From NCBI RefSeq assembly GCF_964036645.1, contig NZ_OZ038525.1, positions 2,626,501 through 2,690,500 on the forward strand: 64,000 nt of DNA. Reading direction: 5' to 3'. The translations under genes were made by a program, and so were the position numbers. The notes beneath the pieces are model-generated. The model ran no database searches, was not told the origin of the DNA, and saw nothing but the letters and a program-made list of their open reading frames with translations. Source of the DNA: Tenacibaculum sp. 190524A02b (GTDB lineage: Bacteria > Bacteroidota > Bacteroidia > Flavobacteriales > Flavobacteriaceae). This document shows, piece by piece, positions 21,860 to 34,707 of the stretch. How positions within the stretch are numbered: the first letter of the stretch is position 1; every line of letters starts with the position of its first letter.

Positions 21860-24682
21860 TTGAAGGAACAGGAGTACATTGAAGTTTATGGGGCTAGAGC
21901 TCATAATTTGAAGAATATTGATATAAAAATCCCTCGTGAAAAGCTAGTCGTTATCACTGGATTAAGTGGAAGTGGTAAATCTTCTTTAGCTTTTGATACA
22001 ATTTATGCGGAAGGACAACGAAGGTATATTGAGACTTTCTCTGCGTATGCTCGACAGTTTTTAGGTGGATTGGAAAGGCCTGATGTTGATAAAATTGACG
22101 GACTTTCTCCTGTGATTTCAATTGAGCAAAAAACCACTAATAAGAGTCCTAGATCTACCGTAGGAACGATTACAGAGATTTATGATTTTTTACGTCTGTT
22201 GTTTTCTAGAGCTTCTGAAGCTTATTCTTATAATACTGGCGAAAAAATGGTCAGTTATTCAGACGAACAAATTAAAGATTTAATCCTAAAAGATTTCAAC
22301 AACAAACGAATTGCTGTTTTAGCTCCTTTAATCAAATCTAGAAAAGGACATTACCGTGAGCTTTTTGAACAAATTTCTAAACAAGGCTTTGTTCGTGTTA
22401 GAGTAGATGGAGAAATTCGTGAAATTGAAAAAGGGATGAAACTAGACCGATACAAAACGCACGACATTGAAGTGGTTATTGATCGTTTAGCTGTAAACGA
22501 AAATGCTGAAAAAAGATTAGAGGAAACTATAAAAACAGCACTTTATACGGGAAATAATATTTTAATGGTTATTGATGTAGAGGAAGAAAAGCCTCGTTAT
22601 TTCAGTCGAGAATTAATGTGCCCTTCTACCGGGATTGCTTACCCTAATCCTGAACCTAATACTTTTTCTTTTAATTCTCCTAAAGGTGCTTGTAATACTT
22701 GTAATGGTTTAGGAACTACCAATGAAATTAATCTTAAAAAAGTAATTCCTGACGACACAATTTCTATCAAAAATGGTGGAATTGCACCACTTGGTGAACA
22801 AAAAAACAGTTGGATTTTTAAACAACTGCAAAACATAGCCAATCGTTATAACTTTAAACTAAGCGACCCCGTAAATACCATTCCAAAAGATGCTATGGAG
22901 ATTATTCTTCATGGAGGTAATGAAAAATTTGAAATTCAATCCAAAGTAGCTGGAGTTACCCGAAATTATGAAATAGATTTTGAGGGTATTGTTGCTTTTA
23001 TAGAGAACCAATACAAAGAATCTGACAGCACCTCTATAAAAAGGTGGGCTAAAGGTTTTATGGATGAAGTTTCTTGCTCTTCTTGCAAGGGAAAGCGATT
23101 AAAAAAGGAGGCACTTCATTTTAAAGTTTTGGATAGAAACATTAGCGACCTTGCGCAAATGGACGTGGTTGAATTAGCAAATTGGTTTAAAAATGTTGAA
23201 AAAAAACTATCTGATAAACAACTTAAAATTGCTTCTGAAATTTTAAAAGAAATTAGAACTAGAATTCAATTTTTATTAGATGTTGGACTTGACTACCTTA
23301 CTTTAGACAGAACCTCCAAGTCTTTGTCTGGAGGAGAAGCACAACGAATTCGTTTAGCTACTCAAATTGGCTCACAATTAGTTGGCGTACTCTATATTTT
23401 AGATGAACCAAGTATTGGACTCCATCAACGCGATAATGAAAAATTAATTCATTCTTTGATAAAATTACGTGATGTTGGGAACTCTGTTTTGGTAGTGGAA
23501 CATGATGAAGATATGATTAAACAAGCCGATTTTGTACTAGATATTGGCCCTGGTGCTGGAAGGCATGGTGGAGAAATTGTTAGTAAAGGTTCTTTTAATG
23601 ATTTGAAATCACACAGTACGTTAACCGCTGATTATTTAGCCAAGAGAAAAACGATTGAGGTTCCTAAAAAAAGAAGAGAAGGAAATGGAAACAGTATAAA
23701 ACTAAGTGGAGCAACAGGGAACAACTTAAAAAATGTTTCTGTCGAATTCCCTTTAGGAAAAATGATTTGCGTAACTGGTGTTTCTGGAAGTGGTAAATCT
23801 ACCTTAATTAACGAAACACTTTACCCTATATTAAATGCACATATTTATAGAGGTGTAAAAAAGCCAATGCCTTATACAGCTATTGAAGGATTAGAGCATA
23901 TTGACAAAGTAATTGACATTGATCAATCTCCAATTGGAAGAACTCCTAGATCAAACCCAGCAACCTATACTGGAGTCTTTAGTGAAATAAGAAGTCTATT
24001 TTCCAAAACTCCTGAAGCCTCTATAAGAGGTTATAAACCTGGACGTTTTAGTTTCAATGTAAAAGGCGGACGTTGTGAAACCTGCCAAGGTGGTGGTGTT
24101 CGTGTTATTGAAATGAATTTCTTACCAGATGTACATGTTGAATGTGAAACTTGTCAAGGAAAACGTTTTAATAGAGAAACGTTAGAAATTAGATATAAAG
24201 GAAAATCTATTTCTGATGTTTTAAATATGACTATTAATGAAGCTACTGACTTTTTTGAGCATATTCCAAAAATATTCCGAAAGTTAAAAACGATTAAAGA
24301 TGTAGGTTTAGGCTATATTACATTAGGACAACAATCTACTACTCTATCTGGTGGTGAAGCACAACGTATTAAATTAGCTTCTGAACTTTCTAAAAGGGAT
24401 ACTGGTAATACTTTTTATATTTTAGACGAACCCACCACAGGGCTACATTTTGAAGACATCCGTGTTTTAATGGACGTTTTAAACAAACTAACTAATAAAG
24501 GTAATACCGTTTTAATTATAGAACATAATCTTGATGTTATAAAACTTGCCGACCATATTATTGATGTAGGTTTGGAAGGCGGTAAAGGTGGTGGCCAAAT
24601 TTTAGCCACAGGAACTCCTGAAGAAGTTTGCAAACATAAAACTAGTTACACCGCTAAATTCTTAAAGAAAGAACTTAATTAA
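21860..24682 (+). CDS. uvrA: Excinuclease ABC subunit A
   Basis: Damage-recognition ATPase of nucleotide excision repair; as a dimer it loads UvrB. There are two ABC modules: Walker A GLSGSGKSS and GVSGSGKST, signature LSGGEAQRI in both halves, and Walker B YILDEPS/YILDEPT. Zinc-binding CxxC pairs are present (CNTCNG; CSSCKG; CETCQG twice). No ATG precedes the conserved start YIEVYGARAHNLKNI. TTG at 21833 gives 949 aa; TTG at 21860 gives 940 aa, lies behind an A-rich stretch (AAAAAAGAACAAC), and is downstream of the -7 element, so I prefer it. The gene is otherwise complete. Confidence 0.95.
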   Translation: MKEQEYIEVYGARAHNLKNIDIKIPREKLVVITGLSGSGKSSLAFDTIYAEGQRRYIETFSAYARQFLGGLERPDVDKIDGLSPVISIEQKTTNKSPRSTVGTITEIYDFLRLLFSRASEAYSYNTGEKMVSYSDEQIKDLILKDFNNKRIAVLAPLIKSRKGHYRELFEQISKQGFVRVRVDGEIREIEKGMKLDRYKTHDIEVVIDRLAVNENAEKRLEETIKTALYTGNNILMVIDVEEEKPRYFSRELMCPSTGIAYPNPEPNTFSFNSPKGACNTCNGLGTTNEINLKKVIPDDTISIKNGGIAPLGEQKNSWIFKQLQNIANRYNFKLSDPVNTIPKDAMEIILHGGNEKFEIQSKVAGVTRNYEIDFEGIVAFIENQYKESDSTSIKRWAKGFMDEVSCSSCKGKRLKKEALHFKVLDRNISDLAQMDVVELANWFKNVEKKLSDKQLKIASEILKEIRTRIQFLLDVGLDYLTLDRTSKSLSGGEAQRIRLATQIGSQLVGVLYILDEPSIGLHQRDNEKLIHSLIKLRDVGNSVLVVEHDEDMIKQADFVLDIGPGAGRHGGEIVSKGSFNDLKSHSTLTADYLAKRKTIEVPKKRREGNGNSIKLSGATGNNLKNVSVEFPLGKMICVTGVSGSGKSTLINETLYPILNAHIYRGVKKPMPYTAIEGLEHIDKVIDIDQSPIGRTPRSNPATYTGVFSEIRSLFSKTPEASIRGYKPGRFSFNVKGGRCETCQGGGVRVIEMNFLPDVHVECETCQGKRFNRETLEIRYKGKSISDVLNMTINEATDFFEHIPKIFRKLKTIKDVGLGYITLGQQSTTLSGGEAQRIKLASELSKRDTGNTFYILDEPTTGLHFEDIRVLMDVLNKLTNKGNTVLIIEHNLDVIKLADHIIDVGLEGGKGGGQILATGTPEEVCKHKTSYTAKFLKKELN

Positions 24683-24782
24683 TCTCTATTTACAAAAGGG
24701 AAAATTACTTTTTATAAAAAAACTACCCATTTTGGGTGGGAAAATTCTTGTTTGCCATTATTAGATTTGTCTTGGGAATAAC

Positions 24783-24813
24783 TTCTAACACACACTAATA
24801 TATTTTGTTAGAA
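24783..24813 (+). other. Inverted repeat in the leader of the first peptide gene
   Basis: TTCTAACA (24783-24790) pairs with TGTTAGAA (24806-24813), an 8-bp stem upstream of RNA element copy A. A TAGATTTG octamer (24762-24769), a possible -7 element, lies just before it, so the hairpin would be near the 5' end of the mRNA. It is not present before the other element copies. Confidence 0.4.
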
Positions 24814-24825
24814 CAAAATCTTTCA

Positions 24826-24875
24826 TTTTTTCGCGAAAAAAAGACATAAGCTTTGAGTGTCTTTAAAGTTCAAAG
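24826..24875 (+). ncRNA. Cis-regulatory RNA candidate, copy A: TCGCG hairpin plus H-type pseudoknot
   Basis: The hairpin TTTTTT-CGCG-AAAAAA (24826-24841) directly abuts stem 1. Stem 1 is AGACAT (24842-24847) with GTGTCT (24857-24862). The stem-1 loop contains CTTTGA (24851-24856), which pairs with TCAAAG (24870-24875), forming stem 2 of an H-type pseudoknot. Loop 1 is 3 nt (AAG), loop 2 is 0 nt and loop 3 is 7 nt, ideal geometry. It ends 26 nt before the ATG of the first peptide gene. Related copies lie at 30829, 31070 and 33674. I do not recognise it as a known class. Confidence 0.7.
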
Positions 24876-24901
24876 TATATTTTATTTTAAAAAATTTAAT
24901 A

Positions 24902-25120
24902 ATGAAAAAACAAATTTTAAACCTAGGAAAGTCTTTAAACAAGGTAGAACAAAAGTTAATTAACGGAGGTGGTGCTCCAGGCGTACCTGGAGATGCTACA
25001 CAAGAAGAATTATATCAATGGTGTATAGACACTTGTAATTGGAAGCAAGAAACTTATCAACTACGTGAACCTGAAACATACTCAGGATGTATTAACAGTT
25101 GTGAAACTACTTACGCATAA
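24902..25120 (+). CDS. Double-glycine-leader peptide 1 (twin CX3C core)
   Basis: A 72-aa precursor-like peptide. The leader MKKQILNLGKSLNKVEQKLINGG ends in Gly-Gly, the cut site of C39 leader peptidases. The predicted core is Cys-containing: CIDTC and CINSC, two CX3C motifs separated by 17 residues, a pattern seen in alpha-hairpinin-type disulfide-linked helical hairpins. There are four core cysteines and none in the leader. The frame is open 15 codons further upstream, but those codons overlap the pseudoknot element, and the shared MKKQIL start fixes ATG 24902. It is first in a run with peptides 2 and 3. The activity (bacteriocin, signal or toxin) is unknown. Confidence 0.8.
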   Translation: MKKQILNLGKSLNKVEQKLINGGGAPGVPGDATQEELYQWCIDTCNWKQETYQLREPETYSGCINSCETTYA

Positions 25121-25164
25121 CAATTTAATTAAAAAGCATACTATAAAATTTTAAAAATACAACA

Positions 25165-25353
25165 ATGAAAAAACAAATTTTAAACTTAGGAAAATCTTTA
25201 ACTAAAAATGAATTAAAAACTGTTAACGGAAGTGGTCCAATACCGGATGGGTGCATTACTATATGTGTGTATCCAGAACCACAGAGACAAGATATAATTA
25301 ATGACCAATTAAGAAGATTTGGTTACGATTATTCTAATTGTAACTGTAATTAA
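25165..25353 (+). CDS. Double-glycine-type leader peptide 2
   Basis: 62 aa. The leader MKKQILNLGKSLTKNELKTVNGS fits the L-[ST]-x-x-E-L-x-x-[IV]-x-G-[GS] rule, with Gly-Ser at the predicted cut. The core begins GPIPDGCITIC and ends SNCNCN, so it has a CX3C pair and a terminal CXC pair (four cysteines), the same plan as peptide 5. The first ten residues are identical to those of peptide 1. It starts 44 nt after peptide 1 with no pseudoknot element between, so it is probably on the same transcript. Confidence 0.78.
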   Translation: MKKQILNLGKSLTKNELKTVNGSGPIPDGCITICVYPEPQRQDIINDQLRRFGYDYSNCNCN

Positions 25354-25377
25354 CATAAATATTAATTCTTTTAAGTA

Positions 25378-25548
25378 ATGAAAAAGCAAATTTCTACCTT
25401 AGGAAACCTTTTAAGTACTAATGAACTAAAATCAATTAAAGGTAGTAATGAATCATATCAATATGCTTGTTGGTGTGTCGGGCATTTTCTTGGGTATGTT
25501 TTAGAACAATCTGATTGCGAATGTTGGACTGACAGACCTAAGTTATAA
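25378..25548 (+). CDS. Double-glycine-type leader peptide 3 (56 aa)
   Basis: Found by reading the frame, too short for usual ORF cut-offs. The protein begins MKKQISTLGNLLSTNELKSIKGS, a textbook L-S-x-x-E-L-x-x-I-x-G-S leader end. The core has a CWC and a CEC pair (four cysteines) and ends TDRPKL. It starts 24 nt after peptide 2. A 13-bp-stem terminator follows at 25601, closing the three-peptide unit and separating it from the convergent TPR gene. Confidence 0.75.
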   Translation: MKKQISTLGNLLSTNELKSIKGSNESYQYACWCVGHFLGYVLEQSDCECWTDRPKL

Positions 25549-25600
25549 CATTAAAAAATGTTTTGCTTACTACTATAAACTATAGAATACAATAACAGAT

Positions 25601-25647
25601 GAAGCTATAATTTAAATTCTAGTTTTACTAGAAAAAATTATAGCTTC
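25601..25647. terminator. Bidirectional terminator between peptide 3 and the TPR gene
   Basis: GAAGCTATAATTT (25601-25613) pairs with AAATTATAGCTTC (25635-25647); inside it, TTCTAG pairs with CTAGAA around TTTTA. The stem is long and nearly continuous between convergent genes. Confidence 0.75.
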
Positions 25648-25660
25648 TTAGTTTAAACTT

Positions 25661-26452
25661 TTAATTCAATTCCTCCAATAGCTTTTTTGCTTCTTTATTT
25701 TTATAGTATGATTTTTCAATAATAAGCTTAAGAAGTGATTTCGATTTTTCTAGCTCGTTCATTTTTACATACAATAAAGCTTTATACCAATATCCTTTTT
25801 CTGAGTCAATAAAATCACTTTTTATTAGCGTATTTAATGTTTCTTCCGCTTTTTTATATTGTGCTAGTTCAATATGAGCTATTGCTTTGTATAAATATAT
25901 GGTACCACTCTCCTTAGGTTTTAATTTTAAAAACTCCACATATACTTTTAAAGATTTTTTATACTCTTTATTCTTAAAAAATTTTTCTCCATCAATCAAG
26001 TCTCCTTCATCTTCTCCCCTACTTATAAAAGTGGGTAATTCTTCTAAGTTTATATACTCTGAAAACAAGCCCTCATTAGAAAAGTTTTTTTTCTTGCCAA
26101 AATTTAAAACATTAAATAAAATTAAAATCGCCGCAACAACTCCTGAAAAATACCAAAGCCTCCTAACTTTACTCTTATTTTTGTATTGGTTTGCTACTTC
26201 ATCAATCGTTTTCTTTATAGATCTACTTTCTTCACTACTAAAATTATCTACCCATTTCTTTACTTCATCAGAACTATTTTCAGCAAAACTCCAATCATTC
26301 TCATCCAATGACTCGTAAAGTTGTTTTTCAAGCCTGTATTTTTCCTTAAATTCTTTATCAGATTTCAAGCGATTTAAAAACAACTCATTTTGTTCTGGCG
26401 AAAGAGTATTTTTTATAAACTTCTCAATTAAAATATCATCTTCTAAGCTCAT
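25661..26452 (-). CDS. TPR protein with one membrane helix, putative anti-sigma partner
   Basis: 263 aa. A cytoplasmic N-terminal part (about 1-95) is reminiscent of anti-sigma helical domains (MSLEDDILIEKFIKNTLSPEQNELF). One membrane helix follows (LWYFSGVVAAILILFNVLNF, about 98-117), then an outer segment with tetratricopeptide-like repeats (about 150-263; YKKSLKVYVEFLKLKP, YKKAEETLNTLI). Its ATG overlaps the stop of the sigma-factor gene, so the two are translationally coupled. From this context and topology I infer that it senses an envelope signal and holds the sigma factor. No anti-sigma family was firmly recognised. Confidence 0.65.
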   Translation of the reverse strand: MSLEDDILIEKFIKNTLSPEQNELFLNRLKSDKEFKEKYRLEKQLYESLDENDWSFAENSSDEVKKWVDNFSSEESRSIKKTIDEVANQYKNKSKVRRLWYFSGVVAAILILFNVLNFGKKKNFSNEGLFSEYINLEELPTFISRGEDEGDLIDGEKFFKNKEYKKSLKVYVEFLKLKPKESGTIYLYKAIAHIELAQYKKAEETLNTLIKSDFIDSEKGYWYKALLYVKMNELEKSKSLLKLIIEKSYYKNKEAKKLLEELN

Positions 26453-27009
26453 ACATCTTTAAGGCTAGTATATCTTTTATCTTTTTTTATTAGCTCAGTC
26501 AACTTTTTTTTACACTTAAAAACTCGCTGTCTAATTACACTTTCTGAATTATATTCAGTTTCTTTCATTATTTCTGCATAGGATGTTTTAGCAAAAAACA
26601 ATGTCAATATTTTCTTACAATTGGCCGTTAAAACACCTAATTTTTCTACAAACAACTCTTGTCTCTTCTGCTCAACTAACGCCAATGAATCTTCATATTC
26701 ATCTACATACTGTTCAAATATTTCATTATTTGTTACCCTTTTTTTATGTTTATTTAATTCTCTCCTCCATAAATTCTTACAAACCGTAAATAAATACGCT
26801 TCAAAACTCGTTGTTATTTCAAACTTTTCTTTTTTATAACGAACTGCTAATTGTAACAAAGCTCTTTGAAAAATATCCTCCGCATCTTCTTTAGATCCTT
26901 TATTCTGTATAACAAACTTTTTAACCACTGGAAAGTTTTTGTTATAAATAGTTAGTATTTCTTTTTCTTTTCCTTTTATCAATGCATCTAAAAAAATAGC
27001 TCCTTTCAT
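26449..27009 (-). CDS. ECF-like RNA polymerase sigma factor (sigma-70 family)
   Basis: 186 aa from ATG 27009. Region 2 is SKEDAEDIFQRALLQLAVRY through AYLFTVCKNLWRRELNKHKK. Region 4 is a helix-turn-helix (LTANCKKILTLFFAKTSYAEIMKETEYNSESVIRQRVFKCKKKL). There is no region 1 or 3, typical of extracytoplasmic-function sigma factors. An upstream in-frame GTG at 27039 would add ten residues and is less likely. It is coupled to the TPR membrane protein downstream and divergent from the lipoprotein/CHAT genes across a 306-336 nt region. Likely targets are its own promoter, the divergent pair and perhaps the peptide genes; this is inference. Confidence 0.82.
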   Translation of the reverse strand: MKGAIFLDALIKGKEKEILTIYNKNFPVVKKFVIQNKGSKEDAEDIFQRALLQLAVRYKKEKFEITTSFEAYLFTVCKNLWRRELNKHKKRVTNNEIFEQYVDEYEDSLALVEQKRQELFVEKLGVLTANCKKILTLFFAKTSYAEIMKETEYNSESVIRQRVFKCKKKLTELIKKDKRYTSLKDV

Positions 27010-27039
27010 ATGCTTATATTTATTATTTTCAAAAGTCAC

Positions 27040-27345
27040 ATGTAACCTCAGGTGTTAAAATAATCAATCTAATACAAAATGATTATTGCCAACATATTAG
27101 TTTCATTATTTTTTTTCACTTCATTCTAAACAAAAATAGAGTTTTATATTAGTTGAAATTAAGCTATATCAACTTATTATGTAAAAATTAACTTTTAAAT
27201 TAATTAAAGCTACCTTCAAAAATTACCGTTTTTTATAATTAATACCTCATATTAACCCCTGTTAAAATAAAGTTTTATATTTACCTCGGGGTAACATTTC
27301 TGTTGTACTCGAACAGAAACGTAGAGAAAACAAAATTTTAATATC
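27040..27345 (+). promoter_or_regulatory. Divergent control region with two inverted repeats before the lipoprotein gene
   Basis: About 300 nt without genes, very A+T-rich. Near the lipoprotein gene, TTACC (27281-27285) pairs with GGTAA (27290-27294), and TTTCTGTT (27297-27304) pairs with AACAGAAA (27312-27319) around a 7-nt loop. The GTAAC at 27291-27295 resembles ECF -35 boxes, but I found no certain -10 partner. No other structure was seen in the rest of the interval. Confidence 0.4.
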
Positions 27346-27852
27346 ATGAAAAAAGTTAAGCAACTTCTTTTTTTATTTTTTTTAGCATTTATATCTAGCT
27401 GTCAAAACAATGACAGTATAGAAGTTATCCAAGAAATAAAAAATACAAACAATCTATCCACAGTCAATAAATCAACAAAAAAAAACACTAAACAGTTACA
27501 AAAATTTGGAGGGCCTATTAGAATTGATAATGACAATTTTCAGACAGTGAATATTGTTTATTTAAGCAACCTAAGCAGCTCAGAAAAAAATAGTTTTAGA
27601 GCTCAAATAATGAGAAACTCAAACCTATCTATAGATTGGTATGCTTGTCCTCAGGATGGTAATACTGAAATATGGCTTATAGATGGCTGGTTAAGATACA
27701 ATGACAACCAAGTTCAAACTACAAAAGTTTTTATTTTACCTCCAGGAACTGTTGGTGAAACGGAGTTAGACGATGATATATCTGAACCTCGTCATATTTA
27801 TGTTAAATGGAAAGCTAGCAAAACAGCATGCTCAATAAACGGTCTACCATAA
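27346..27852 (+). CDS. Predicted lipoprotein upstream of the CHAT gene
   Basis: 168 aa. The N-terminus is a lipoprotein signal with the lipobox FISSC (Cys19), so it is envelope-anchored. The mature part has no domain I recognise. It contains a segment VNIVYLSNLSSSEKNSFR and a Trp/Tyr-rich middle (LSIDWYACPQDGNTEIWLIDGWLRY), with two cysteines that may pair. Its last 25 nt overlap the start of the CHAT gene, so the two proteins are probably made together and may work together. Function unknown. Confidence 0.7.
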   Translation: MKKVKQLLFLFFLAFISSCQNNDSIEVIQEIKNTNNLSTVNKSTKKNTKQLQKFGGPIRIDNDNFQTVNIVYLSNLSSSEKNSFRAQIMRNSNLSIDWYACPQDGNTEIWLIDGWLRYNDNQVQTTKVFILPPGTVGETELDDDISEPRHIYVKWKASKTACSINGLP

Positions 27853-30533
27853 AACATATAAAAAGAAACACCAAGGCCAAGATAAGACTTATTATAACCT
27901 TGGTGTTATTTTACACTACTTTCTATAATAGTGTTTTCTCACAAGTACCTAATACTATACAAAGAACCGATAGTTTACTAAATTCCTTAATAAAAAATAA
28001 AAGCTATGAAAAAGCAATAAATATTTCTCATGATTTATCTATAAAAAAATACAAACATAAGCAGCTATTTCAAGCTATTAAATACAGTTTGATAGAAAAA
28101 AAAGCTTATGAAGAGAGTAATATTATAAATAAACCGTTTATTAATTGTTTATATAACCTAGGTTTTTTTTACTACAAAAACGCTTCTTATAATAATGCTA
28201 TCAATTTTTACTCTAAAGTAATTAGTCTAAATATAGATAGTATTCAAACCGCAAAAGCGTATTGCGAAATAGGAAGAACATATAACAAAACAGGTGATTT
28301 TTTTAAATCTATTAACTATTATAAAAAAGGGATTGATTTATTAAAGAAACTAAATAAGAAAAAGATACTACTTAAAAAGTATTTAAACTACTCTATAGTT
28401 CATCTTAATGTAGGGTCTAAAAAATCGTTCATAGAACGCTTTAAAATCTTAAAAAAAGCCTCTTTATTAATCACCAAACAAACTCCTTACAAAGTAAAAC
28501 ACACACTTAATAATCAATATGCTAATTATTACAATAAGAAGGAGGGTTTTGATTATTATGAAGCTAAAAAATACTATTTAAAAAATATTGAACTAAACAA
28601 AAAACATAAAGATACTCTTCTTTTAGCTGAAACCTACAACAACTTATCTGACCTTTATATAAAGCAACAAAATGATAGTGCTCGTTTTTTTATTAATCAA
28701 GGGTTATTACTTGTTAAAAAAGGTATTTCTAAAGCTAGACTTCACGACAATTACAGTCAGTTTTATTTAATAAAAAACAACCTTAACAAAGCGTTAGAAC
28801 ATATTGATTTATCCATTAAAGAAAATCTTAAAACAACCCCCAACTATCAAAACGAAATAAATAGAACTAGTTTATTTAAAAATCCTTTCAAATATCACCT
28901 ACTCCATTGCTTTAACAAAAAAACTGAAATTTTAATTAAACTATTCCAAAATAGCAAAGAACCTTCTTTTTTAGAATTAGCATTAAATTCAGTTAAAAAC
29001 GCCACAAAACTTATAGGTATTTTACAACAAAGCAGTACTGAATCTAAAACTAAGCTACATTGGAGAACCCATGCTTTCGAAACCTTTTCTAATGGAAGCT
29101 ATATAGCCAAACTGTTACATAACGACTCGATGCTTTTTTATTTCATGGAAAAGAGCAAAGCACTCTCTTTAACTGAAAGTATTGTATACAATACGCAACT
29201 TTCATTTTTACCAACTCATGTAAAAGAAAGAGAAAATAATTTAATGAAAACTATTTATGCTCATGAAGACGCCTTAGATAATCTTAAAAACAACTCTAAA
29301 AAGAAAACAATTCAAAATGCTCTTTTTTCTGCCAAACTGGAATACGACAAGTATATTGATTCCATTAAACCTTTATTTAATGATTATTTTAAAAATAAAG
29401 TTAATATACAGCTAACCTCCTTAAAAGAAGCACAGCTAAATATACCTAACCATAAATCAGCTATTATTTCATATACTTGGAATGAAATTTACAATAAAAT
29501 ACTAGGTATTGTAATTTTAAAAAACAAAACTTATTCTTTTAAAATAGATTCAGCACTAACTACAGGTCATAAAATAGAAAAATACAAAAAGCTTATCTCC
29601 TCTCCTTTTATTAAAAAAAGAGATTTAAAAAGCTTTCAAAAAACATCATTTAATCTTTACCAAACCCTTTTTCCCTCTGAAAAAATTAGACAGCTAGTCC
29701 TCAATAAAAATCTATTAATTGTCACTGATGGAAAATTACACGATATGCCATTTGAAGCATTAATCACTAAAGAAAACACAAACAACTACCTAATTAACAC
29801 TAATAATACTAGTTACACTTACTCCATGTCTTTTTTAAAGTATAATAATATAAAAAGGCGTAAACACACTAGTTCATTTATAGGTTTTGCTCCTGTAAAC
29901 TTTAATAATTCTGGTAATAGTTTGCAAAATTCCGAAAAAGAAATCCGTACAATCAAAGAAATTATTGGAGGGAAAGCTTTCAATAAAAAAAATGCTACCA
30001 AAGAAACTTTTTACTCAGAAACATCACAATCAAAAATAATTCACTTAGCTACACATGCCAATGCATCTAACAAACCTTGGATTGGTTTCTATAATGACAC
30101 TTTATTTCTTCACGAACTCTACACTCATAAAATCAATGCCAATTTAGTTACTTTAAGTGCTTGTGAAACCACTTTAGGAGAAACTATTGTGGGAGAAGGG
30201 GTTTTTAGCCTTGCTAGAGGCTTCTTTTTTTCTGGTGCAAAATCTGTCACATCCTCACTTTGGAAAGTTAATGACAAAGCTTCACAACAAATAATGGAAG
30301 AGTTTTATAGAAACTTAAAAAAAGGACAACATAAAAACACAGCTCTTACTAATGCTAAAAGAACTTATATAACTAATAATTCTCTTTCCGATTCTTCGCC
30401 TTATTATTGGGCTTCTTTCATATTAATTGGAGACTCAAACTCAATCGAGTTCTCTAATAAAAATTACATTCTTATTTACATTTTATTAGCTCTTTCTTGC
30501 TTTTTACTATTTTTTCTCAAAAAAAGAGGGTAA
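27828..30533 (+). CDS. Exported TPR-CHAT domain protein (caspase-like peptidase family)
   Basis: 901 aa. A signal-peptide-like N-terminus (LIITLVLFYTTFYNSVFSQ, about 20-38) is followed by TPR repeats (about 50-350), a linker helical region, and a C-terminal CHAT domain (about 640-865). The expected catalytic dyad is present: His743 in IHLATHA and Cys779 in LSACETTLGE, followed by the GEGVFSLARGFFFSGA motif. A final membrane helix (about 877-895) would anchor it with the peptidase outside the cytoplasm. CHAT proteins are caspase/separase relatives; the target is unknown. The start lies within the end of the lipoprotein gene. Its setting between sigma/anti-sigma genes and leader peptides makes a signalling or processing protease plausible. 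Confidence 0.85.
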   Translation: MLNKRSTIKHIKRNTKAKIRLIITLVLFYTTFYNSVFSQVPNTIQRTDSLLNSLIKNKSYEKAINISHDLSIKKYKHKQLFQAIKYSLIEKKAYEESNIINKPFINCLYNLGFFYYKNASYNNAINFYSKVISLNIDSIQTAKAYCEIGRTYNKTGDFFKSINYYKKGIDLLKKLNKKKILLKKYLNYSIVHLNVGSKKSFIERFKILKKASLLITKQTPYKVKHTLNNQYANYYNKKEGFDYYEAKKYYLKNIELNKKHKDTLLLAETYNNLSDLYIKQQNDSARFFINQGLLLVKKGISKARLHDNYSQFYLIKNNLNKALEHIDLSIKENLKTTPNYQNEINRTSLFKNPFKYHLLHCFNKKTEILIKLFQNSKEPSFLELALNSVKNATKLIGILQQSSTESKTKLHWRTHAFETFSNGSYIAKLLHNDSMLFYFMEKSKALSLTESIVYNTQLSFLPTHVKERENNLMKTIYAHEDALDNLKNNSKKKTIQNALFSAKLEYDKYIDSIKPLFNDYFKNKVNIQLTSLKEAQLNIPNHKSAIISYTWNEIYNKILGIVILKNKTYSFKIDSALTTGHKIEKYKKLISSPFIKKRDLKSFQKTSFNLYQTLFPSEKIRQLVLNKNLLIVTDGKLHDMPFEALITKENTNNYLINTNNTSYTYSMSFLKYNNIKRRKHTSSFIGFAPVNFNNSGNSLQNSEKEIRTIKEIIGGKAFNKKNATKETFYSETSQSKIIHLATHANASNKPWIGFYNDTLFLHELYTHKINANLVTLSACETTLGETIVGEGVFSLARGFFFSGAKSVTSSLWKVNDKASQQIMEEFYRNLKKGQHKNTALTNAKRTYITNNSLSDSSPYYWASFILIGDSNSIEFSNKNYILIYILLALSCFLLFFLKKRG

Positions 30534-30647
30534 CAACTTCCTTATTATTTAACATTAGATAAAACATTGTTCTTTACAACCTAATAAGTATACATAACTT
30601 ATTTAGTTGAACAATATTAATTGATAAATATTTAAAACTAAGTTATC

Positions 30648-30824
30648 ATGAAATCTAAAATTTTAAAAGTGGGAAAAAGCTTAAATAAGAAAGAATTAAA
30701 AAACATTAAAGGAGAGCTTGATAACAATTGCCCTCCTCAAACGCTTAATAATTGTTTTACTGGACCATTCCATTGTAATATTCATCAACTACCAATTTGC
30801 CCACCAATTAATAACGAAAATTAA
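30648..30824 (+). CDS. Double-glycine-type leader peptide 4 (58 aa)
   Basis: Below the usual ORF size limit. It begins MKSKILKVGKSLNKKELKNIKGE, the shared leader with Gly-Glu at the predicted cut, the least canonical of the eight. The core is Asn/Pro-rich with four evenly spaced cysteines (NNCPP, NNCFT, FHCNI, PICPP). It lies 114 nt after the CHAT gene and has no pseudoknot element before it; a 7-bp inverted repeat (AATAAGT/ACTTATT, 30583-30603) lies in that gap. RNA element copy B begins 4 nt after its stop. Confidence 0.72.
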   Translation: MKSKILKVGKSLNKKELKNIKGELDNNCPPQTLNNCFTGPFHCNIHQLPICPPINNEN

Positions 30825-30828
30825 CACA

Positions 30829-30863
30829 AGACATACAGCTTGAGTGTCTATAATAGTTCAAGT
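30829..30863 (+). ncRNA. Cis-regulatory RNA candidate, copy B: pseudoknot only
   Basis: Stem 1 is AGACAT (30829-30834) with GTGTCT (30844-30849). Stem 2 is GCTTGA (30838-30843) with TCAAGT (30858-30863), closed by a G-T wobble. Loop 1 is ACA and loop 3 is 8 nt. Unlike the other copies it has no TCGCG hairpin. It ends 29 nt before the ATG of peptide 5 and starts 4 nt after the stop of peptide 4. Confidence 0.65.
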
Positions 30864-30892
30864 AAACTTAACAACTAAATACACTATAAAAA

Positions 30893-31060
30893 ATGAAGAA
30901 ATCAATTTTAACCTTAGGAACCACCTTAAGTAAAGAGTCACAAAAGGTAATTAATGGCTCAGGAGCAGCTCCAGATTATGATTGTAGAATTGAATGTTAT
31001 CCTGATAACAAGAGACATATTTTAATAGCATGTGGATGCTATTTTAATGGACAAGTATAA
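30893..31060 (+). CDS. Double-glycine-type leader peptide 5 (55 aa)
   Basis: Not reported by length-limited ORF calling. The leader MKKSILTLGTTLSKESQKVINGS ends Gly-Ser. The core starts GAAPDYDCRIEC and ends ACGCYFNGQV. Its CX3C plus CXC layout (four cysteines) matches peptide 2, so the two are a subfamily. It is preceded by element copy B and followed by copy C. Confidence 0.75.
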   Translation: MKKSILTLGTTLSKESQKVINGSGAAPDYDCRIECYPDNKRHILIACGCYFNGQV

Positions 31061-31069
31061 TTAGAAACA

Positions 31070-31119
31070 ATCTTTCGCGAAGGTAGACACAAACCTTGAG
31101 TGTCTTTAAATGTTCAAGG
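31070..31119 (+). ncRNA. Cis-regulatory RNA candidate, copy C: TCGCG hairpin plus pseudoknot
   Basis: The hairpin ATCTT (31070-31074), loop TCGCG, AAGGT (31080-31084) abuts stem 1, AGACAC (31085-31090) with GTGTCT (31100-31105). Loop 1 is AAA. Stem 2 is CCTTGA (31094-31099) with TCAAGG (31114-31119); loop 3 is 8 nt. It ends 25 nt before the ATG of peptide 6. The C-G pair in stem 2 replaces the T-A pair of copy A, a compensatory change. Confidence 0.72.
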
Positions 31120-31144
31120 AGTTTTCACTAAAAACTCATTAAAA

Positions 31145-31372
31145 ATGAAAAGCAAAATTTTGAAACTAGGCAAAAGCTTAAATAAAAATCAACAAAAACT
31201 TATTAATGGAGGTAAGAGCCCAAATGACAAGTTAAACACTGATGGAGTTAACACCTCAACGCTTGGTTGCTCAGATGGTAGCACCCCACATTACACTTGT
31301 ATTAACAATACTATTGTAGGTTATTGTTTAAATGGACAAATTATACAAGGTCCAGGAGGACATTGTTTATAA
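31145..31372 (+). CDS. Double-glycine-leader peptide 6
   Basis: 75 aa from ATG 31145. An upstream in-frame ATG at 31100 would overlap the pseudoknot element and is rejected. The leader MKSKILKLGKSLNKNQQKLINGG has a true Gly-Gly end. The core is Asn/Thr/Gly-rich with four spaced cysteines (LGCSD, YTCIN, GYCLN, GHCL). It heads a pair with peptide 7, which starts 31 nt after its stop. Confidence 0.78.
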   Translation: MKSKILKLGKSLNKNQQKLINGGKSPNDKLNTDGVNTSTLGCSDGSTPHYTCINNTIVGYCLNGQIIQGPGGHCL

Positions 31373-31403
31373 TAATTTAATAATCATTAAAACATATAAA
31401 AAA

Positions 31404-31571
31404 ATGAAGAAATTAATTTCTACCTTAGGTAAAGTTTTAAATAAAGAAGAACAAAATAACGTTTTCGGAGGTTTTAATAACATAGCAGAATGTTATGATT
31501 ACTGCATCAGAAACTCAGCAGATAGAATGGAGTTAGGAGAATGTTTTGATCAATGTCAGATTATATTCTAA
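31404..31571 (+). CDS. Double-glycine-leader peptide 7 (twin CX3C core)
   Basis: 55 aa from ATG 31404. A longer frame open from 31332 overlaps peptide 6 and lacks the leader start. The leader MKKLISTLGKVLNKEEQNNVFGG ends Gly-Gly. The core has CYDYC and CFDQC separated by 12 residues, a twin CX3C pattern like peptide 1 and typical of alpha-hairpinin-like disulfide-stapled helix pairs. A strong terminator follows. Confidence 0.78.
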   Translation: MKKLISTLGKVLNKEEQNNVFGGFNNIAECYDYCIRNSADRMELGECFDQCQIIF

Positions 31572-31600
31572 AAGAGGTTAAAATAACTACAACCAATACA

Positions 31601-31630
31601 ATGACCAGATTTTTCTGGTCATTTCTTTTT
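31601..31630 (+). terminator. Terminator of the peptide 4-7 unit
   Basis: ATGACCAGA (31601-31609) pairs with TCTGGTCAT (31614-31622) around a T4 loop, followed by a T-rich tract. Confidence 0.85.
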
Positions 31631-31739
31631 ACAAAACACTTATAACTTATCAAAAAGCAAACTCAGCTAACTTAAAATTAGCTAAACACCACTTATTTAA
31701 CATTGAAAAACTTATAATTAAAGAAATATAAATTATTTT

Positions 31740-32125
31740 ATTTCCGTTGTTTATTTTTACTATACAGATCTTCTAAAGGAATTAATATTTTTTCACGTTC
31801 TTTCTGAGTTTGGTTACCAAGTGGATTCCATTATAGAACAACTTTAAATATGTATCCTTTATCCCCAAAGAGTTTACCTTATATATTATGAACTGTTTAA
31901 ATCTAAGCAGATTTTTATCACCTACACTACCTTTTTGTAGCCATCAAATCAATAATCCCTCCTTTTTATTGGTAATAGCATAAGCTTAAAACCATAAAAA
32001 GAATATTATCCTCTTTGAGCAATACCTTTAAAGGTTTTATCTTCTAAATTTCTTTCTTTATTACATATTTTTAAGTGGAGTAGAATCAATAAAACTAATT
32101 CCAGTACAATATGGTATTTATAGAA
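31740..32125 (-). pseudogene. Decayed IS982-family transposase remnant
   Basis: Read on the minus strand across several frames, fragments of an IS982-type DDE transposase are legible: TGISFIDSTPLK (around 32075-32110), then KGSVGDKNLLRFKQF, GKLFGDKGYIF and GIHLVTKLRKNVKK (around 31800-31950), interrupted by stops and frameshifts. No intact frame and no clear terminal inverted repeats remain. The 874-nt gap from 31572 to 32445 otherwise holds the terminator at 31601 and A+T-rich sequence, including a 16-codon micro-ORF at 32343 that I do not count as a gene. Confidence 0.7.
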
Positions 32126-32445
32126 ATAATGGAGAACATTATAATTGACATATGGTTTGGCTGTGAAACAACACAAAAGCAAAAAATAAATGATTCTAAA
32201 TTATACCTTATAAGGACAATAATCCAGCTATCCACCTCATTGCGTAACTATTAAAAATTAACTACATATTATTAAATATTAACCAATCCTTATTTATTTT
32301 ACGTTTTTAAAATTAAAAACAACTATTTTTAAACAAAAACTTATGATTAAAAAAAAGTCAAAAAACAGAGTATTACTTCTATTTCCTCCTTAAAATTATA
32401 ACATTTCCCATAAAGAATCTAAAACTAGACTAACATTAATAGATA

Positions 32446-33660
32446 TTGCTAACTATAAAAAATATTGTGACAAATTCAACAACCAACCTAGTATTAAAAC
32501 TACTTCAAAAGAATTCTATCCTGCTAAATGAAAAAGAATTTATTTTTCAAATTAAAAACCACTCATCTTACCCTAGTATTGATGCTATTACTAGTGTTTT
32601 AGATCATTTTAATATAGAAAATATAGCTGCTGAAGTACCTACCAACAAAGAAATATTAAAGCAACTACCTAATTACTTTATAGCAGAGCTTAAAAACTCT
32701 AGTGACGTAAAGGAATTTGTCTTGGTAGAAAAAGAAAAAACTAACTGTGTGTTATACTCCTCTGAAAACACAAAAAATACGCTTTCAGAAAATGATTTCT
32801 TAACCAAATTTACAGGTGTCATTATTGCTATTGAGGAATTAGAAAAAAGTGAACTTTCTTCTCAAAAAAATACTAGTACATTTCTTTTTAGCACTATATT
32901 AGTAGCTCTTCTATTTTTTATCCTTTATACAAGTACTTCTTCTTTTCAACTTATAGCAATACTAATCGCAATAGTTCTTACTATATTATTTATGTGGTTT
33001 TATATTAAACCTATAAAAATTGAAAACAAAAAACTAAAAAAGGAACAAGTAGTAAACTCTAAATTTAAACAGAACTTTACTGTTTTTAAAATGCTATTAA
33101 ACGAAACTCCTATAATAAAAACTTATATTAAAGGTAACAATGATATTATTTTAGGAAATCTAAATGCTAAAATTGAAATAACAGTAATTATTACACCGCT
33201 ATCCGAACAGTGTAGGTCTATTTCTAAACAGCTAAAAAAAATACTCAATTCATATGGCGAAAATATTAAAATAAGAGTTCGTTTTAACACAAACAATCAA
33301 AACCCTAAAGTTTTTAAAACATGTGTTAGTCTTTTAAATATTTTCAAAGAACAAGGGGAAAAAGTCTATTTACAAGCTTTACACGATTTATTTGATATTC
33401 CTACTCCACTTGAAAAATGGCTATTAAAATGGGAAAATCTTACTAATCAAACAGAACGAGAAAGCCAATTGAAAAAACAAAATTTATGGTGTCAAGAAAA
33501 CCTACTTAATTTTACCCCAGAATTTTTAATAGGCGGTCAGTTATACCCTAAAGAATATCATTTTGAGGATTTATTTCTTTTCATTGAAGAATTAAATGAA
33601 GAAAACCAAAATACTTCATCTCACCTAACTTATTTTGATGATAAAATCATTTTCAATTAA
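32446..33660 (+). CDS. C39-like/thioredoxin-like membrane protein that seems to have lost its VKOR core
   Basis: 404 aa. The N-terminal part (about 10-135; HSSYPSIDAITSVLDHFNIEN) matches the C39-like domain found in Bacteroidota C39-VKOR-thioredoxin fusions. Two hydrophobic segments follow (about 146-190). The C-terminal thioredoxin-like domain (about 225-385) reads PLSEQC where the active relatives have a CxxC. The four-helix VKOR core with its two cysteine pairs, expected between the hydrophobic segments, is absent, so the protein is more than 100 residues short of the form I know. There is no ATG at the start: TTG 32446 or GTG 32467 are the options. Intact relatives form disulfides in exported peptides. 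This one is probably degenerate or a chaperone-like survivor. Confidence 0.7.
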   Translation: MLTIKNIVTNSTTNLVLKLLQKNSILLNEKEFIFQIKNHSSYPSIDAITSVLDHFNIENIAAEVPTNKEILKQLPNYFIAELKNSSDVKEFVLVEKEKTNCVLYSSENTKNTLSENDFLTKFTGVIIAIEELEKSELSSQKNTSTFLFSTILVALLFFILYTSTSSFQLIAILIAIVLTILFMWFYIKPIKIENKKLKKEQVVNSKFKQNFTVFKMLLNETPIIKTYIKGNNDIILGNLNAKIEITVIITPLSEQCRSISKQLKKILNSYGENIKIRVRFNTNNQNPKVFKTCVSLLNIFKEQGEKVYLQALHDLFDIPTPLEKWLLKWENLTNQTERESQLKKQNLWCQENLLNFTPEFLIGGQLYPKEYHFEDLFLFIEELNEENQNTSSHLTYFDDKIIFN

Positions 33661-33673
33661 AAACAAATAAAAC

Positions 33674-33725
33674 ATTCTTTCGCGAGGAATAGACACAAAC
33701 CTTGAGTGTCTTTAACTGTTCAAGG
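33674..33725 (+). ncRNA. Cis-regulatory RNA candidate, copy D: TCGCG hairpin plus pseudoknot
   Basis: The hairpin ATTCTT (33674-33679), loop TCGCG, AGGAAT (33685-33690) abuts stem 1, AGACAC (33691-33696) with GTGTCT (33706-33711). Loop 1 is AAA. Stem 2 is CCTTGA (33700-33705) with TCAAGG (33720-33725); loop 3 is 8 nt. It ends 30 nt before the ATG of peptide 8. The hairpin stem differs in sequence from copies A and C but keeps pairing. Confidence 0.72.
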
Positions 33726-33755
33726 GGTTAGCCATCTTTATTAAATCATTTAAAA

Positions 33756-33992
33756 ATGAAAAAACAAATTTTAAAATTAGGAAAAGAATTAAAGAAACAA
33801 AGCCTAAAAACCATTAATGGAGGTCAAATGGTGTATTGTGTAAGTAACAAAACATGGTACAACATTGGAGTTCCTGGTCCTGGTTTACCTGAAGACTGCC
33901 ATACTCCACCAGGTGGAGAAGATACTTCAGATCCTTGTACTCCTGTATGGCAAGGTATACCTGGAGGTCCAGGTCAATGGGGATGTATATAG
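33756..33992 (+). CDS. Double-glycine-leader peptide 8 (Gly/Pro-rich core)
   Basis: 78 aa. The leader MKKQILKLGKELKKQSLKTINGG has a Gly-Gly end. The core is rich in Gly and Pro, with four cysteines (VYCVS, EDCHT, DPCTP, WGCI) and several Trp/Tyr residues, unlike the other cores. It is preceded by element copy D and the VKOR-less thioredoxin-like gene, and ended by a terminator at 34031. Function unknown. Confidence 0.78.
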   Translation: MKKQILKLGKELKKQSLKTINGGQMVYCVSNKTWYNIGVPGPGLPEDCHTPPGGEDTSDPCTPVWQGIPGGPGQWGCI

Positions 33993-34030
33993 AAAAACAA
34001 AAGTTTTTTATACTTAATACAAAACAATAT

Positions 34031-34056
34031 AGAGCAGGAACCATACCCTGCTCTTT
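34031..34056 (+). terminator. Terminator after peptide 8
   Basis: AGAGCAGG (34031-34038) pairs with CCTGCTCT (34047-34054) and is followed by a short T-run. It closes the accessory peptide locus. Confidence 0.75.
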
Positions 34057-34119
34057 AATATAAAAGTATTTCTATATACTAAAATAGTCCTTTATCAAAA
34101 AAACTAAAAAACAAATACT

Positions 34120-34707
34120 ATGAGCTTTTTAATACAAGAAAAAAAACACAACGCCATAGGAGGATGGCATTTTGAACCCGAAGCTTTTTCCGAAGAGGAA
34201 ATTGAAAAAATACACCAACTAGCTGACAAATTAGATTTTAAAAAAGCAGTATTAGCCTCTGGATCAAACAATAATGATGAATATAGAAAAAGTGAAGTAA
34301 AATGGCTAACTTCTCAAATGGAAGGAGCTTATTGGTTATACCAAAAGTTTGCAGAGATTTCTATAAAGGCCAATAACAAACTTTGGCAGTTTGATTTAAC
34401 AGGAATGCTTGAAAATATACAATATGGTATTTACCGTAGTGATGGAGGACATTACAACTGGCATATGGACGTTGGAGGAGGCTCTACTCATAAACGTAAA
34501 ATCAGTATTGTGCTCCAACTATCCGATCCAGAAGAATATGAAGGTGGTGAATTAGAAATGTTTGTTAGTAAAGACGTACAAAAAATCCCTAAAATCAAGG
34601 GCGCTGTATTATTATTTCCTTCATATTATATGCACAGAGTAACCCCTGTTACCAAAGGAGAAAGAAGATCTATAGTATTATGGGTTTCTGGCCCTCCATT
34701 AAGATAA
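34120..34707 (+). CDS. 2-oxoglutarate/Fe(II)-dependent oxygenase (prolyl-4-hydroxylase/PiuC-like)
   Basis: 195 aa, cytoplasmic. The iron triad is His115-x-Asp117 (YNWHMDVG) and His172 (YYMHRV), with Arg182 or Arg183 (GERRSIVLW) as the 2-oxoglutarate-binding residue. The double-stranded beta-helix between them is intact. Family members hydroxylate amino acids or peptides; the substrate here is unknown. It is the first gene after the peptide locus. A role in modifying those peptides is conceivable but unsupported, and a terminator separates the two. Confidence 0.85.
   Translation: MSFLIQEKKHNAIGGWHFEPEAFSEEEIEKIHQLADKLDFKKAVLASGSNNNDEYRKSEVKWLTSQMEGAYWLYQKFAEISIKANNKLWQFDLTGMLENIQYGIYRSDGGHYNWHMDVGGGSTHKRKISIVLQLSDPEEYEGGELEMFVSKDVQKIPKIKGAVLLFPSYYMHRVTPVTKGERRSIVLWVSGPPLR

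Follow-up and report, generated by a model that had tools for sequence, protein, structure and literature searches.

Four copies of a compact RNA fold precede genes for exported-peptide precursors in a 64,000-nucleotide (nt) stretch of the Tenacibaculum sp. 190524A02b genome (Flavobacteriaceae; contig NZ_OZ038525.1, positions 2,626,501 to 2,690,500; hereafter the window, to which all coordinates refer). The fold, which recurs before such genes in marine flavobacteria, consists of an optional hairpin, P1, and an adjoining H-type pseudoknot, and the joint changes at its paired positions from species to species mark it as a real structured messenger RNA (mRNA) element that is apparently undescribed. 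Comparison of the copies shows that pairing at the RNA level has been under selection in both pseudoknot helices and in the central part of P1. That the element also controls expression we infer from its sequence and placement: with a probability of about one half, it would act in cis as a boundary that insulates or protects the peptide segment of the transcript.

Architecture and distribution of the element

The initial annotation had listed copies at 24826-24875 (A), 30829-30863 (B), 31070-31119 (C) and 33674-33725 (D), and all four are present there with the stems ascribed to them. Each is an H-type pseudoknot in which stem 1 (AGACAY/GTGTCT) and stem 2 have 6 base pairs each, loop 1 (L1) has 3 nt (AAA, AAG or ACA), loop 2 is absent, and loop 3 (L3) has 7-8 nt. 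As annotated, P1 abuts the pseudoknot in copies A, C and D and carries the loop TCGCG in all three; it is absent from copy B, where the outermost stem-2 pair is G.U. The supposed invariance of this loop did not hold, as TTGCA, TGCGC, AGCT, CATG or CTGCAG cores are seen in other species.

The exact pattern of the element occurs seven times in the 5.04-Mb genome (five times on the forward and twice on the reverse strand) and its reversed control not once, hence the occurrences are not due to chance. From six own-genome copies we built a covariance model, R1, of P1 and stem 1, with stem 2 omitted on purpose. At E up to 10 it marked eight places in this genome, namely its six source copies (E 1.1e-12 to 1.6e-9, a recovery built in by construction), as well as copy B (E 0.18) and an eighth site at E 0.0011. 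All eight precede GG-type leader peptide genes, the eighth of which (L014) is decayed by stop codons.

The proposed covariance-model search of the family was productive: among 397 genomes, R1 matched 54 at E up to 0.1 and 44 at 0.01, with at least 14 copies in the richest genome (14 candidates were scored per genome). Of the other 53 matching genomes, 48 supplied 95 regions around listed matches, and five whose best E lay between 0.049 and 0.099 were left out; four of the weak loci taken (L136-L139) look false. On these regions, the window and four own-genome loci, R1 at E up to 0.01 yielded the 152 matches (92 + 60) examined below. With a second model, R2, and the same E limit of 0.01, there were matches in 25 of 395 genomes sampled at order level and in 11 of 395 at phylum level, the two samples overlapping. 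Outside the family, stem 1 differs in the copies of family f5 (GTCAA/TTGAC), whose L3 is similar, and copy L142 from family f7 has CTATGA/TCATAG as stem 2. A class-level copy, L166, combines stem 1 AGTCAG/CTGACT and the P1 loop ATCGCGA with one C.A mismatch in stem 2; it precedes the gene of a TIGR04149-type GG peptide, which a protein search found at the same place too. A pattern scan of named genomes returned at least 112 stretches, the genera among the matches listed including Tenacibaculum, Aquimarina, Winogradskyella, Lacinutrix, Bizionia, Polaribacter, Dokdonia and others. Virus contigs held no exact match.

Covariation shows selection for pairing

For covariation, an E limit of 0.003 kept 143 of the 152 matches, or 138 distinct rows; the structure-parsed tables comprised 135 copies. 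The parsing step, which also sets the stem-2 end used for measuring the distance to the start codon, itself searched for pairing, and its own pairing rate is therefore left out of the evidence. Over the distinct rows, 98.2% of the cells are paired in stem 1, 92.3% in stem 2 and 83.8% in P1; stem 1 and P1 were in the search model, so their alignment leans towards them. Both sides changed at 16 of the 18 pairs. The annotated joint changes in stem 2 were confirmed: though this stem lay outside the search model, both sides changed at all six of its pairs, with 98 double-change cells against 30.3 in shuffles, and sliding the partner out of register lowered pairing to at most 67.4%. Homologues breaking stem 2, named beforehand as evidence against the fold, are rare (7.7% of cells unpaired).

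In addition, each column was simulated on its own along a tree that FastTree inferred from the element sequences (200 simulations). Mutual information exceeded all simulations at four of the six pairs in stem 2 (the other two were reached by 1 and 7 simulations), at four of six in stem 1 (the other two hardly vary), and at three of six in P1 (the others were reached by 14, 6 and 3). Excess pairing gave similar figures for stems 1 and 2, stem-2 pair 62-93 being reached by one simulation of 200, while the innermost P1 pair had no excess (58 of 200). G.U cells far outnumber A.C cells in stem 1 (45 vs 6) and stem 2 (63 vs 15), which argues for RNA and not for a DNA operator. In P1 overall the counts are 80 and 81, and most unpaired P1 cells fall in the outermost (46) and innermost (50) pairs. 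The covarying helices lie on the mRNA strand, as in cis-acting structured mRNA elements.

A partly independent set of 106 distinct places came from 80 of the pattern-scan stretches, some genomes being shared with the first set. The pattern fixes the 5' half of stem 2 and leaves the 3' half free; all three variable stem-2 pairs are kept in 94 of the 106 places. In the pseudoknot loops, the conserved letters are the L1 As and L3 UUAAAUGU, of which only L1 A55 and L3 A83/A85 are near-invariant; these could form structural triples.

Variant P1 loops tend to be self-complementary: 13 of 33 hold a palindrome of at least six bases (3.2 expected, highest of 500 shuffles 9) and 22 one of at least four (13.2 expected, highest shuffle 20). 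Self-complementary or nearly self-complementary cores (AGCT, TGCGC, CATG, TGCA, CTGCAG, ATGCAT) were noted in L067, L084, L091, L103, L109, L116 and L131; the CTCGCAA loops, found in 4 of 102 hairpins, break the self-complementarity. When 300 tree simulations were run for P1 columns, mutual information of columns 11-14 was above all of them, and these columns could be a cross-loop pair. Columns 12-13 were reached by 5 simulations and the mispaired control 12-14 by nearly as few (7), only the former leaning to standard pairs; columns 10-36 gave no signal.

A further hairpin, P0, stands upstream of P1 in 54 of the 135 parsed copies, compared with 6.3 in shuffles and 16 of 135 in the stretch further upstream. 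We dropped it as a part of the element, as its occurrence is not consistent enough. Where seen (L055, L056, L071, L100, L107 and others), P0 lies 5-18 nt upstream of P1, changes in sequence, and often has an A-run before it and a GAACAATAT-like linker after it.

Position relative to peptide genes

The expected frequent placement before GG-leader peptide genes was borne out. A GG-type open reading frame (ORF) follows 140 of the 152 matches, with a literal GG in 132, under a loose rule (GG, GA, GS and similar within residues 15-45) applied without a shuffled control; two of the 140 (L131 and L132) are doubtful. By reading, about half of the remaining 12 matches precede decayed GG genes and several are false; hits unrelated to gene starts, which would have counted against the element, are few. 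A GG-like ORF also follows 98 of the 106 places of the partly independent set. In both sets, then, the place before a same-strand gene start is consistent, as in cis-acting mRNA elements. From the end of stem 2 to the ATG there are 26 (A), 29 (B), 25 (C) and 30 (D) nt on the same strand in the window, in agreement with the annotated 25-30 nt, and a median of 27 nt (5-95% range 24-30 nt) over 139 ATG starts. In L014, L050, L098, L105 and L135 the element is kept or nearly kept before apparent GG genes that have decayed by stops or frameshifts.

The spacer between stem 2 and the start codon (127 of the parsed copies) has 10% GC and 2.3% G, with A at -3 in 114 copies, at -11 in 104, at -12 in 113 and at -13 in 84. 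According to the accessible part of PMC6847099, Flavobacterium johnsoniae mRNAs have no Shine-Dalgarno sequences, and A at -3, -6, -12 and -13 favours translation. The A/T-rich spacer carries much of this Bacteroidetes initiation signature. Given its low G content and its As at -3 and -11 to -13, the initiation region looks open and ordinary, with the structure sitting just outside it.

By a simple ORF rule, the upstream neighbour of the 135 parsed copies is a same-strand ORF in 115 cases (within 100 nt in 75 of them) and an opposite-strand one in 16; none was found in four. Three kinds of upstream genes are frequent: those of proteins of about 520-550 residues that open with a C39-like part (Pfam checks of three gave C39-like and VKOR domains, with Thioredoxin_4 in two), of C39 ABC transporters of about 730 residues (one checked), and of HlyD-like proteins of about 430 residues (one checked). 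The gaps are 2-9 nt past the stop codon in eight of nine cases for the transporters, with 125 nt in the ninth, and -3 to 4 nt in eight of ten for the HlyD-like genes. A structured element at a cistron boundary beside an open initiation site is what 5' mRNA stabilisers and intercistronic boundaries have in common with the copies observed here.

With copy B added by hand, the element was counted before 103 of 117 GG-type genes at the start of a run and before 19 of 60 in later positions; once one ascertaining gene per locus is removed, the figures are 28 of 42 and 12 of 53 (Fisher P = 2e-5). In the window, four of the eight recognised GG-type genes have the element (those at 24902, 30893, 31145 and 33756) and four lack it (25165, 25378, 30648 and 31404). 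The run starting at 24902 fits this tendency, as does 33756, which directly follows a C39-like gene. The exceptions are 30893 and 31145, which carry the element after other GG-type genes, and 30648, which starts a run without it. Elsewhere, L142 precedes a Sec-type secreted protein (signal recognised by eye) and L132 a lipoprotein-like protein, both at the usual spacing, which suggests that a GG-leader coding sequence is dispensable.

The window genes had been called leader-peptide genes. A GG-type leader is indeed visible at the N-terminus of their products, but they are not of the attenuator type and look like precursors of exported peptides. None of the eight peptides reached an NCBIfam cut-off, and weak matches of TIGR01847, NF047798 and TIGR04149 fell on four of them; the GG-type naming therefore rests on the visible leader.

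Table 1. Copies of the element and associated genes in the window
Feature	Coordinates	Strand	Details
Copy A, P1 hairpin	24826..24841	+	T6 / CGCG / A6
Copy A, H-type pseudoknot	24842..24875	+	stem 1 AGACAT/GTGTCT; L1 AAG; stem 2 CTTTGA/TCAAAG; L3 7 nt
Copy A, spacer	24876..24901	+	A/T-rich, 26 nt, up to the start codon
GG-leader peptide gene	24902..25120	+	MKKQILNLGKSLNKVEQKLINGG...; first in a run of three, after copy A
GG-type peptide gene	25165..25353	+	second in the run, no element
GG-type peptide gene	25378..25548	+	third in the run, no element
GG-like peptide gene	30648..30824	+	NIKGE replaces GG; no element; TIGR01847 bacteriocin signal slightly under cut-off
Copy B, pseudoknot without P1	30829..30863	+	stem 1 AGACAT/GTGTCT; L1 ACA; stem 2 GCTTGA/TCAAGT
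GG-type peptide gene	30893..31060	+	INGSG, GS replaces GG; after copy B
Copy C, P1 hairpin	31070..31084	+	ATCTT/TCGCG/AAGGT
Copy C, pseudoknot	31085..31119	+	stem 1 AGACAC/GTGTCT; L1 AAA; stem 2 CCTTGA/TCAAGG; L3 8 nt
GG-leader peptide gene	31145..31372	+	after copy C
GG-leader peptide gene	31404..31571	+	no element
C39-peptidase-like protein gene	32446..33660	+	thioredoxin-like part (Thioredoxin_4 under cut-off); cistron upstream of copy D
Copy D, P1 hairpin	33674..33690	+	ATTCTT/TCGCG/AGGAAT
Copy D, pseudoknot	33691..33725	+	stem 1 AGACAC/GTGTCT; L1 AAA; stem 2 CCTTGA/TCAAGG; L3 8 nt
GG-leader peptide gene	33756..33992	+	after copy D

The C39-like protein encoded upstream of copy D has 404 residues and no VKOR match; it is probably a short relative of the longer C39-VKOR-thioredoxin proteins (about 530 residues) encoded upstream of the element in relatives. 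Before this gene, 31660-32440 as a whole looks like gene debris, and a short broken stretch at 32090-32190 resembles, by eye, a part of the gene at 34120-34707 (oxygenase-like by look). Between the two runs of peptide genes, 25661-30533 holds what look like a sigma-factor gene with a neighbour and a lipoprotein gene, and also encodes a TPR-CHAT protein (Pfam CHAT 8e-53).

Proposed role and its alternatives

The annotated cis-acting RNA affecting translation or mRNA stability from a place before the start codon is supported by the stem-2 covariation, the G.U excess, the near-fixed distance to the ATG and the mostly intercistronic position. We propose that it would punctuate transcripts where cistrons in low demand (VKOR-thioredoxin, C39 ABC transporter, HlyD) give way to peptide cistrons in high demand. 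Being rigid, the pseudoknot would stop nucleases or decay that arrive from upstream, and it would prevent the sequence before it from folding onto the initiation region; with a ribosome on the spacer and ATG positioned closely behind it, little RNA would be left naked. The P1 loop may provide a further contact, to a protein or another RNA. The peptide segment downstream would gain in stability and be translated better than the genes before the element. The near-fixed spacing suggests that the element and the bound ribosome are linked, and the bias towards the first gene of a run suggests an effect on the whole segment, beyond one gene.

Several observations weigh against such a boundary. Taken one by one, the window sequences form nested folds no stabler than those of shuffles (z 0.34, -0.17, -1.08 and -0.14), hence the support for the element is comparative, not energetic. 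Spacer position -6 is mostly T (88 of 127), although an A there is reported to promote initiation. The first-of-run count is drawn from element-bearing loci, its ascertainment being only partly corrected; some first GG genes lack the element, some copies lack P1, and the genes after L142 and L132 seem not to encode a GG-leader peptide. An aid to translation of its own gene alone would predict the element equally often at later GG genes, and mRNA protection alone would not require so tight a distance to the ATG. Finally, the fold was absent from all 11 GG start sites, belonging to 10 genes of which one is same-family, that came from loci matched by TIGR04149 (10 of 198 genomes) or NF047798 (6 of 198), in an insensitive test whose narrow expression required perfect stems and missed the gene at a known copy (L280, genome G926).

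The element could instead bind a trans-acting regulator, either an RNA-binding or a ribosomal protein, through which translation of the GG-peptide cistrons would be repressed or activated, as in autoregulated pseudoknot leaders. In favour are the compact fold directly before the initiation region, the conserved L1 and L3 letters, and the many copies per genome before different peptide genes, which a shared regulon would lead one to expect. The stem letters vary freely, so that recognition would rest on the loops and the shape, and no candidate protein turned up, gene co-occurrence being outside the analysis. We regard such a site as possible, though not the probable explanation. More doubtful is a variant in which one pseudoknot per peptide run docks on the initiating 30S subunit or a standby ribosome at about 27 nt and sets dosage, while the P1 loops, kept self-complementary by paired changes, pair between copies and co-control the segments; kissing P1 loops may be retained only as a part of this variant. 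An RNA processing site, at which a nuclease cut or self-cleavage frees the peptide mRNA from the polycistronic transcript, would agree with the intercistronic place and the first-of-run position (compare the plastid intercistronic expression element, IEE, as outlined in the accessible part of PMC2230500). It seems unlikely: no Rfam family, ribozymes included, matches the window copies, and the conserved unpaired core that known self-cleaving RNAs carry is absent.

The initial annotation had also allowed for a ligand-binding switch. Riboswitches of the preQ1 or SAM-II/SAM-V classes are built on H-type pseudoknots of similar size (SAM-V controls translation in this way, per its abstract), and the conserved A-rich L1 and L3 could form triples, but positive support is lacking: the stems change freely, invariant unpaired letters are few, Rfam gives no match, no association with metabolic genes was seen, and the initiation region is not visibly sequestered. 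We find a riboswitch quite improbable. The last alternative, a DNA operator or promoter, starts from the fact that AGACA..TGTCT, CTTGA..TCAAG and TCGCGA are nested DNA palindromes, that P1 loop cores are often self-complementary, and that G.U and A.C are balanced in P1. For double-stranded DNA, substitutions should be strand-symmetric, with G.T as rare as A.C, and in stems 1 and 2 they are not. Moreover, the centre of the P1 stem falls on the third of the five loop bases and misses the TCGCGA dyad by half a step, and eight of the nine copies after the transporter genes begin almost at the stop codon, which disfavours a promoter. In the 200 nt upstream of the 135 copies, the flavobacterial promoter form was found 0 times in full (1.2 expected) and 16 times by its -7 part (14.0 expected); a very loose TTG..TA form occurred in 94 (85.3 expected), equal to the highest of 30 shuffles and no clear enrichment. 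We therefore rejected the DNA reading as highly implausible. An upstream ORF starting from an AUG in L3 was likewise dropped on reading, as copies A, B and D have no such AUG and the spacer varies by single bases.

The expected search of Rfam, including Flavo-1, gave no match: at gathering score, Rfam 15 found only tRNAs over the whole window, and at E up to 5 its four weak matches in 24700-34100 lay on no copy of the element. A tRNA scan of 24000-34500 found none. No description of such an element was found in the literature, most subscription journals and supplements lying outside the coverage, and none appears in the accessible parts of PMC2864571, PMC9723704, PMC8040213, PMC8632094 and PMC3997798.

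As far as the partial sources go, one close likeness is to 5' mRNA stabilisers such as the Bacillus subtilis aprE leader, an example known from a title in the reference list of PMC3997798: they share a structured RNA near an open initiation region and presumed downstream protection, but combine a hairpin at the primary 5' end with ribosome binding, whereas here a pseudoknot is mostly intercistronic and conserved as a family across genera. The IEE likewise makes a downstream cistron separately expressible from an intercistronic position; it differs in being a plastid element studied for processing, and the comparison, based on part of PMC2230500, is by description and not by sequence or structure. 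With preQ1, SAM-II and SAM-V the element shares a compact H-type pseudoknot upstream of a start codon and differs in gene context, freely changing helix letters, lack of visible sequestration and the absence of an Rfam match. Two candidates are described in the accessible part of PMC2864571. Flavo-1 (RF01705) is also a candidate structured RNA of Bacteroidetes, placed in sense or antisense alike (PMC9723704, in part), whereas our element is tied to gene starts and the window has no Flavo-1 match. The STAXI motif is also a pseudoknot in several copies, but in tandem repeats near genes of DNA-binding or DNA-handling proteins, and here single copies stand before exported-peptide genes.

The element would be useful as a marker for exported-peptide genes, since each of the eight own-genome matches stands before a GG-type gene, decayed in one case. 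A new RNA family that covaries strongly and is tied to one gene class would offer a way into how Bacteroidota, lacking Shine-Dalgarno sequences, adjust initiation and keep the cistrons of one operon in balance.

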